Origin: Tubulanus polymorphus
Lineage: Eukaryota > Nemertea > Palaeonemertea > Tubulaniformes > Tubulanidae
Assembly (NCBI RefSeq): GCF_964204645.1
Contig: NC_134026.1
Location: forward strand, 30,752,650 to 30,816,649
Direction of reading: 5' to 3'
DNA: 64,000 nt
The position numbers and the translations under genes are program-made. A model generated the notes under the pieces. That model was not told where the DNA came from. It did no database searches and worked only from the letters and a program-made list of their open reading frames with translations. Shown piece after piece: positions 36,958-42,298 of the stretch (positions are counted from its first letter, which is position 1; every line of letters begins with the position of its first letter).

Positions 36958-39900
36958 ATGTCATATAAATGGTTAAAACTGGCTGAAATAACGATGTTTC
37001 TCGACCGGCAGTTTGATAATGATGACACCACAACCGATAAACCCAATGTTCATTGTCACTGTACGAGGGTTTTAATCAGGTATTTCAAACTCCTCCTCAT
37101 TCATTCTCTCTTCGACCCAACTCAAACTCTTGCATTTTAAAATATGTTTTTATATTAATCTAATTTGTAGTGATTCCAATTTGTGTAAATGGGCCACGAA
37201 AGGGAAACCCGTTTCCTCTGACCCTGAAGATGCCGATAATGTTGCTATGGAGATGGCTGATGAAGATGCTGAGTTGATGAAACAGATGGGATTACCATTG
37301 CAGTTTAAACCAGGGGTAACACTAAAAGCAGGATACATTTTCAATGATTGTCTTTCATTTTAATGAAAGTATCATAATTTTCATTTTATCTGCATCAGGT
37401 TGCCGGTGATTCTGATATCGAAGTTGAAAAAGTCCGGAAAAAAAGAAAAAAAAAGAAAAGTAGGACTAAAAGGAAAGAACAATGTGAAAGAAGAGTTGCT
37501 GCTGCTGCTGATGTGAAGTGTAAATTAGATAAGGATCAATTGGAAGCCGTTTGGACTGAATATTGGCAGAAATTTGGTGAAACGTTAGTTTGGCAAAGTT
37601 GGGTCGAAAAATATAAAGATCAAATCGATGAATCAGAAATACCAGTGATTGAGGAGATTGAAGTTTCAACTACGGATGAACAGCGAGATCAATTAGTAAC
37701 TGCATCACAGGAGCAGGATGCTGCTGTATCAAACAAGGAGGATGATGCCGATACTGGTGTATTACGGGAGTCGGATGCTGCTGTATCAATCGAGCAGGAT
37801 GATGCCGATACTGGTGTATCACAGGAGCAGGATGCTGCTGTATCAAACAAGCAGGATGATGCCGATACTGGTGTATCACAGGAGCAGGATGCTGCTGTTT
37901 CTTTGTGTAAATCGGTACAGTACAACCTGAGTGAAACTGATAATTATCACCAACAAATACTGAACAAAATAGCCCCGGAAAATTACCAATCAAATACAAC
38001 AAATTCAGATCATGAATATTCATCAATCACTCAAACATCGGATCAGGCCAGAGATAATTATGATAATTATAATGAAGACGATGATAGAAATGAAGATGAT
38101 TTCAAAGAAGCTTGGAAATCTTTGTGGGAAGATCATTATACCGAATTATATTGGTATTATTATCATCAGTTCATCACCGCACCTGGAGGGGGCAGCACGG
38201 TTAAAGGAACTACACCTGTAGGGGGTTGTACTGATGAAGGTACCTCACCTGCAGAGGGCAGCACTGATGAAGGTACCTCACCTGTAGGAGGCAGCACTGA
38301 TGTTGTTTGCGATATGGAGAAATGTAGTTTATCATCGGATGAAGAATTTGAAGGAGTGTTTAATGATTGTACGATGGAGTTAGTAAAGGCTGCTGCGGCA
38401 GGTGAGGAGTTAGTAAAGGCTGCTGCGGCAGGTGAGGCTGCTGCGGCAGGTGAGGTGTTAGTTAAGGCTGCTGCAGCAGGTGAAGGAGGTAATGATACTA
38501 CTGGAGGAACCTCGACCGATCAACAAAGTTCAACGCACACCAGTAAATATCTCAATCTTTAACTGAACTCATTATATCAAAGTGATGATTAAACGAGTTT
38601 CTTGAATGTTTGTAGGTTCAGTTCAGCAGATCTCCAGCGAAGGAGGCAGTAGGAGTAGGAGCAGTGGAATATGTGAGAGTTGCGGGGGTGATGACGATCC
38701 TCCAGATGAATTACCCGTCAAATTACATCGAATGTTAGTACCCTATTTCATTCATTGGTGGCGCTGTTTACGCCATACGTGTACACTGTGCGTTCTGTAT
38801 TTGTAGTCACGAGGAAGACGCTGTTGAAAATGAGGACGATGAAGATGATAAAATGGAGGAGGAAGAAAATGATGAGTTGGAAGTGAAAGAACACGCCGAT
38901 CGACAACCAATAAAACAAGCATTTGAAGTATTGGGCTACAGAATTGCAGATAAACAACTGTAAGTACAGTACAGTGAAACTCACTGCATCATACTTGGGA
39001 AAGTCATTATGTTGATGACGACCTATACTTAGTAAATTGAATTGCTAATACAAACTTAGACATATGCAGTGATTGACTATAAGTGTTTTGTTTCAGAGGA
39101 ATGAATTGTCCGGTGTCCATTAGCGGAGGTCTTGTCAAATTTATACCACGTAATATCAGACAAAACTGTGAATACTTGAATATGGGAAACAATGCAGAGG
39201 AAGAAAATATGTCCAGTGAAAATGTGCATAATCAAATGAATGCTTCAACTCAACCGACATTAATTGATGCTTTTGTTGATAGTAGTGAAAGTGTAAGTTT
39301 GGCAGCAGCAAATAGATGAATAACAATTACAGAAAAAGGATCTGAAATGTTGGCCTTGATGGTGTTTTGTTTACTATTGACATCTAGATGTATATTTGAA
39401 TTTGTATTTTATAGACCCCTCTCCTGATAGAAGATCAACAGATCCTGCCACCAAGAGAAGATCAGCAGATTCTGCCACCAAGAGATCAGCAGATTCTGCC
39501 ACCAAGAGAAGATCAGCAGATCCTGCCACCAAGAGAAGATCAACAGATCCTGCCACCAAGGGAAGATCAGCAGATTCTGCCACCAAGAGAAGATCAGCAG
39601 ATCCTTCCACCAAGAGAAGGTCAGCAGATTCTGCCACCAAGAGAAGATCAGCAGATCCTGCTACCAAGAGAAGATCAACAGATCCTGCCACCAATAGAAG
39701 ATCAGCAGATCCTGCTACCCAGAGAAGATCAAGAGGTGACGTCTCATTTAAGAACGTGCAACAAATATGAAGACTGGAAACTTCCAGAATGTGTACAACC
39801 GATATTTATTATCGGAGATTCTAATTTAGCTCGTATCACGCAGAGCATCAAACCGGACGATGTTCAAATTGAAAGTTTTCCCGGCGCTAAAATCGAACAT

Positions 39901-42298: not shown

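Follow-up and report, generated by a model that had tools for sequence, protein, structure and literature searches.

A probable Penelope-like element ORF1 SGNH domain within a predicted TGS1 gene

TGS1 acts on snRNAs, snoRNAs, and telomerase RNA. Domestication of proteins from LTR elements, LINEs, and DNA transposons is well known, and the OSK domain of Oskar is an SGNH fold in an RNA-related host protein that, unlike the domain described here, has lost its active site. In retroelements, SGNH domains are found in ORF1 proteins and are thought to act in RNP assembly and localization; the SGNH domain of ORF1 from the zebrafish LINE ZfL2-1 has hydrolase activity, binds to acidic phospholipids, and is able to dimerize by domain swapping (PMC3905857). 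Bdelloid Athena/Terminon Penelope-like elements (PLEs) and Vesta LTR elements have GDSL ORFs (PMC5408684, PMC6431247), and according to a study of PLEs in a rotifer there was no strong evidence that Penelope ORFs had been exapted (PMC3846280). Telomerase RNA is capped by TGS1 (PMC9050681), and yeast Tgs1 requires self-association for efficient trimethylation (PMC4466884).

The gene considered here lies in G000:C2:30752650-30816649, the 64,000-nucleotide stretch of DNA that was analysed (the window, whose positions are used below), from a 268-Mb eukaryote genome that has telomeres of TTAGGG repeats and encodes TERT. A TGS1 gene of 12 exons and 1158 codons with zero internal stops is predicted from reading frames and splice sites; its features are as follows.

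36958-37079, 37171-37315, 37399-38542, 38616-38733, 38807-38959, and 39097-39292, + strand: predicted TGS1 exons 1-6, aa 1-626; the joined frame is open, with GT-AG junctions.
39415-40287, + strand: predicted exon 7, 873 nt, aa 627-917 (291 aa), phase 0/0, comprising a repeat, a PLE-ORF1-like linker, and the SGNH domain.
39429-39731, + strand: 27-bp tandem repeat, (EDQQILPPR)n, 11.3 copies, approximately the first 300 bases of exon 7.
39733-39789 (approximate), + strand: linker of 19 protein letters, homologous to QEVRRHPNTGRKKQDWSLP in PLE-A ORF1 and QPVRTHQKTTHKVKEWIIP in PLE-B ORF1.
39799-40263, + strand: predicted SGNH-type hydrolase domain, with codons S at 39820, G at 39883, N at 39973, D at 40201, and H at 40210.
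40392-40554, 40836-40967, 41492-41708, 42007-42085, and 42164-42298, + strand: predicted TGS1 exons 8-12, encoding a basic stretch and the complete methyltransferase domain.
41709-42006, + strand: intron 10, U12-type AT-AC, with 5' site ATATCCTTTT and branch point TTCCTTGAC ahead of the 3' AC.

Exon 2 contains 12 protein letters that would correspond to an N-terminal landmark of human TGS1. The Class I methyltransferase domain is complete, with the SPPWGG motif intact, and aligns over its full length with that of human TGS1 (PDB 3gdh; E 2.9e-94) with one 4-residue gap, so the gene is no broken copy; a search of the genome with PF09445 returned this single locus, making it the sole TGS1 orthologue there. 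What distinguishes it from animal TGS1 (human, PDB 3gdh/3egi) is the 291-aa repeat and SGNH exon between the N-terminal part and the methyltransferase. Ten of the 11 introns are GT-AG. The exception, intron 10, gave an apparent loss of methyltransferase segment at exon 10/11, which was rejected since the intron there is of the U12-type AT-AC class; this reading is gap-free across the exon junction in the alignment with human TGS1. Both the 5' site and the branch point of the intron are of textbook form, and its host gene encodes a protein that caps spliceosomal snRNAs.

The first-pass annotation had placed an SGNH-like domain within TGS1, in a single exon at 39415-40287 with phase 0 at either side and GDSN and DQIHW blocks, between an exon 6 ending at 39292 and an exon 8 starting at 40392. 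The full gene model has the same boundaries, phases, and blocks, and supports the domain as part of TGS1; it adds the 27-bp repeat, which that annotation lacked. Nothing in PLE ORF1 matches this repeat region. Exon 3 also contains several in-frame tandem repeats (37704-38483; units of 57, 33, and 48 bp), so repeat growth appears to be a habit of the TGS1 gene and nothing peculiar to exon 7.

Assignment of the exon 7 domain to the SGNH group is based on its motifs and on profile comparisons. The motif residues are GDSN (S762), FPGAK (G783), GINN (N813), and GDQIHW (D889, H892); the SGNH signature Ser, Gly, Asn, and Asp-x-x-His in blocks I, II, III, and V is thus present, and TGS1 has counterparts of all five positions described as the active site of ZfL2-1 (Ser, Gly, Asn, Asp, and His; PMC3905857). 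Pfam Lipase_GDSL_2 scores 20.4 bits (E 8e-4) on the TGS1 domain, under the curated cut-off of 32.9, and 31.1 bits (E 4e-7) on the related PLE-B ORF1; the domain is nevertheless classed as SGNH-like from its sequence, a Pfam score threshold being no defining feature of the superfamily. As a single sequence the domain matches the ZfL2-1 LINE ORF1 esterase (PDB 4c1b) with a non-significant E of 0.31, whereas a profile of the domain and its relatives matches 4c1b with E 3e-6, the best match of that group profile to a solved structure. The group profile can also be aligned end-to-end, GDSN through His block, with the SGNH domains that LINE ORF1 proteins carry in this genome (hhalign probability 97.6%). 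The AlphaFold2 model of the domain alone, predicted from a single sequence without alignment, is poor (pLDDT 47), so the assignment to an alpha/beta/alpha SGNH fold rests on the sequence profiles.

More than 50 relatives of the domain at E 1e-20 or better are found in the 268-Mb genome by tblastn, the best at E 1e-27, so the domain is no chance match; the search of IMG/VR and GTDB genomes gave no relatives at E<=1e-3. The nearest relatives are PLE ORF1 proteins, with 41-42% identity over 154 aa (E 1e-27). The TGS1 domain is 39-42% identical to intact ORF1 copies of two families, PLE-A and PLE-B, and shares with them the GDSN, FPGxK, GIN, and DxIHW blocks and the preceding linker; in BLASTP the TGS1 protein matches residues 324-520 of PLE-A ORF1 (E 8e-36), and the homology extends into the linker upstream of the fold. 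The genome also contains several LINE families whose zinc-knuckle ORF1 carries an SGNH domain (L033-L038, L046-L048). Identity of the TGS1 domain to the SGNH domains of these zinc-knuckle ORF1 proteins is approximately 17%, and in a tree TGS1, PLE-A, and PLE-B split from the LINE domains with support of 94/90 (identities of 36-41% versus 16-20%). Both identity and tree reject LINE ORF1 as the source. The abundant invertebrate GDSN family, to which the domain had at first been attributed, is accordingly too broad a source: the closest relatives are the ORF1 proteins of telomeric PLEs, whereas the zinc-knuckle LINE ORF1 proteins, a GDSN family common in this genome, are distant. ZfL2-1, which has the same S, G, N, D, and H set, is likewise a non-LTR element and no PLE.

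PLE-A has an ORF1 of approximately 520 aa, with the SGNH domain at its end, and an 830-aa ORF2 with RVT_1 (1e-7) and GIY-YIG (4e-4) matches, which identify it as a PLE. PLE-B is organized in the same way: its ORF2 is 42% identical to that of PLE-A over the part compared, and the N-terminal domains of the two ORF1 proteins are related. By description, these families resemble Athena/Terminon as telomere-associated PLEs with a GDSL/SGNH protein, but Athena/Terminon elements lack an endonuclease, whereas ORF2 of PLE-A and PLE-B has GIY-YIG. PLE copies are arrayed head to tail, either in small contigs or at the ends of contigs (C4, C10, C30, C34, C54, C63, C65, and C66). In contig C10 the first 1.3 kb is CCCTAA, and PLE-A sequence comes next; on C4 and C7 the PLE-A 3' end, ...GGTCCCCTAACCTCTATCTCTAAACCTAA, is directly joined to telomeric repeats, and 5'-truncated copies are bordered distally by such repeats. 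The PLE 3' end faces the centromere at one left and one right chromosome end, the same orientation in which Athena/Terminon elements are described as attaching terminally (PMC6431247, PMC3846280). Tandem arrays of PLE-A and PLE-B joined to TTAGGG span C4:1-68000, C7:21563800-21571900, and C10:1-33000 (L022, L023, L026, L039, L056). A decayed PLE-A/PLE-B cluster lies deep in a chromosome (C5:18095300-18134000; L024, L032) and is possibly an old telomere or fusion point, and PLE-A copies with an open ORF1 are found at internal sites (C2:16492600-16496600, L040; C3:16169037; C2:15117165), where they perhaps inserted through their endonuclease. No hammerhead ribozyme was matched in Rfam at the PLE 3' end up to E 1; two HPnc0260 matches there were rejected as below the family cut-off.

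In contrast to the PLEs, where the SGNH domain ends an ORF1 with its own N-terminal domain, the TGS1 domain lies inside a host protein, has a 4-residue insertion, and is preceded by a different repeat. The ORF1 N-terminal domain has no match elsewhere in TGS1, introns 6 and 7 contain no PLE DNA (the single DNA match, 51 bp at 80%, is inside the SGNH domain), and no telomeric hexamers are found at 38000-42400. With neither the ORF1 N-terminal domain nor an adjoining RT ORF, exon 7 is, on these comparisons, a derived domain and no element. GC and third-position GC of the TGS1 domain (0.38 and 0.36) are at the host level, with values of 0.56 and 0.70 for PLE-A.

Several observations bear on selection. 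Between the TGS1 domain and PLE-A the third-position difference is 0.71 and 15 of 23 four-fold sites differ, which is near saturation, with 40% of residues persisting. TGS1 retains 48 of the 76 residues common to PLE-A and PLE-B, versus matches to either state at 31 of the 83 positions where the PLEs differ (p=0.0015), a comparison of distant sequences from one genome. In neutral simulations from the PLE sequence at 40-50% retained identity, the frame stayed open in 1-3% of runs, and stayed open with all five active-site residues in <=1/4000; these simulations take the whole TGS1 branch as neutral, and a shorter neutral phase would also fit. Together these results suggest that the frame and active site of the domain have been kept by selection.

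The explanation that best accounts for the sequence, and that is probably correct, is that exon 7 encodes an SGNH domain domesticated from PLE ORF1. On this reading, the SGNH domain at the C-terminal end of such an ORF1, together with the upstream linker, would have entered TGS1 as a symmetric exon, phase 0-0, placed after the low-complexity N-terminal half and ahead of the cap methyltransferase, and selection would since have maintained it long enough for synonymous sites to saturate. The SGNH part can hardly be a separate gene, nested or neighbouring, that was wrongly joined to TGS1: the exon 7 junctions are predicted from DNA, but the reading frame of the exon (39415-40332) starts directly after a TAG at the acceptor (39412-39414), and its first Met (codon 163) lies beyond the catalytic Ser (codon 136), so the domain would be translatable only via splicing from upstream. 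The splice sites are also good (ttgtattttatag on the 5' side, gtttgttt on the 3' side), the phases match on either side, and the flanking introns are just 122 and 104 bp long. Skipping of exon 7 is a real possibility because it is predicted to leave an intact frame of 867 aa, which is near the length of human TGS1. The exon could then be a PLE-derived but minor or skipped cassette without a role, the 867-aa form being the main TGS1; its symmetry and its donor, gtttgt, which is not strong, fit such a passenger, yet the same donor is used at another TGS1 intron, and the open frame, the five active-site residues, and the preferential retention of PLE-conserved sites despite near-saturated synonymous sites make a passenger unlikely.

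The direction of transfer rests on parsimony because the relative order of TGS1, PLE-A, and PLE-B in the tree is a trichotomy (support 0/27), TGS1 not being placed inside PLE diversity; it is more economical to suppose that the domain passed from an element into the gene. The trichotomy would equally accommodate an SGNH domain that was in TGS1 first and was taken by the PLEs, or one that both acquired from a third source, and retroelements do exchange and capture GDSL ORFs (PMC5408684). Such a history is nonetheless very unlikely, given that the ORF1 N-terminal domain joined to SGNH is common to both PLE families and lacking in TGS1, and that the domain occurs in one host gene only versus dozens of element copies. 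Domestication of the PLE domain might also have taken a special form, telomere restriction or co-option, in which the TGS1 domain binds PLE ORF1 protein or RNA, so that RNPs are trapped or the RNA is TMG-capped. The donor resides in telomeres, both families being joined to telomeric repeats, and TGS1 caps telomerase RNA (PMC9050681), which hints at a telomere link; in addition, the genome has TERT, and an ORF1 esterase domain is able to dimerize by exchanging halves (PMC3905857). This case is purely circumstantial, however, and mixed dimers may require more than 40% identity; trapping or capping of this kind is distinctly unlikely, and it is similarly unlikely that the domesticated domain physically links telomerase-RNA-capping TGS1 with the telomeric PLEs or their RNA.

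For the domesticated domain itself, the most plausible description is that it is probably a hydrolase-competent RNP- or oligomer-tethering module on TGS1, a mechanism that we infer by analogy. It would tether TGS1 molecules to each other, or TGS1 to a partner, a membrane, or an RNP. Because the ZfL2-1 domain can dimerize (PMC3905857) and yeast Tgs1 self-associates (PMC4466884), tethering or oligomerizing is the tentative first choice for the main role, though it may well not be the right one. A hydrolase reaction as the main role is somewhat doubtful but ranks close behind, because every active-site residue is retained, and retention of the full active site is not what one would expect of a mere scaffold; for the same reason, the pseudo-enzyme raised as an option in the first-pass annotation is not favoured. 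A modification-related role, which that annotation also raised, may exist.

We know of no TGS1 with a repeat and SGNH exon, as was also the case for the first-pass annotation with respect to the SGNH domain, and no description of an SGNH domain in TGS1, or of a PLE-derived host domain, was found in the open-licence literature. Going by that literature, this would, if true, be the first case of a PLE contributing a domain to a host protein. Part of a selfish element has apparently been built into an essential RNA-processing enzyme; the donor element dwells in telomeres, and the substrates of the recipient are snRNAs, snoRNAs, and telomerase RNA. If exon 7 is expressed, it would give a direct experimental handle on the role of retroelement ORF1 SGNH domains, a question that dates from their discovery, and if the telomere-linked reading were true, cap hypermethylation, telomerase, and telomeric retroelements would meet in one protein.
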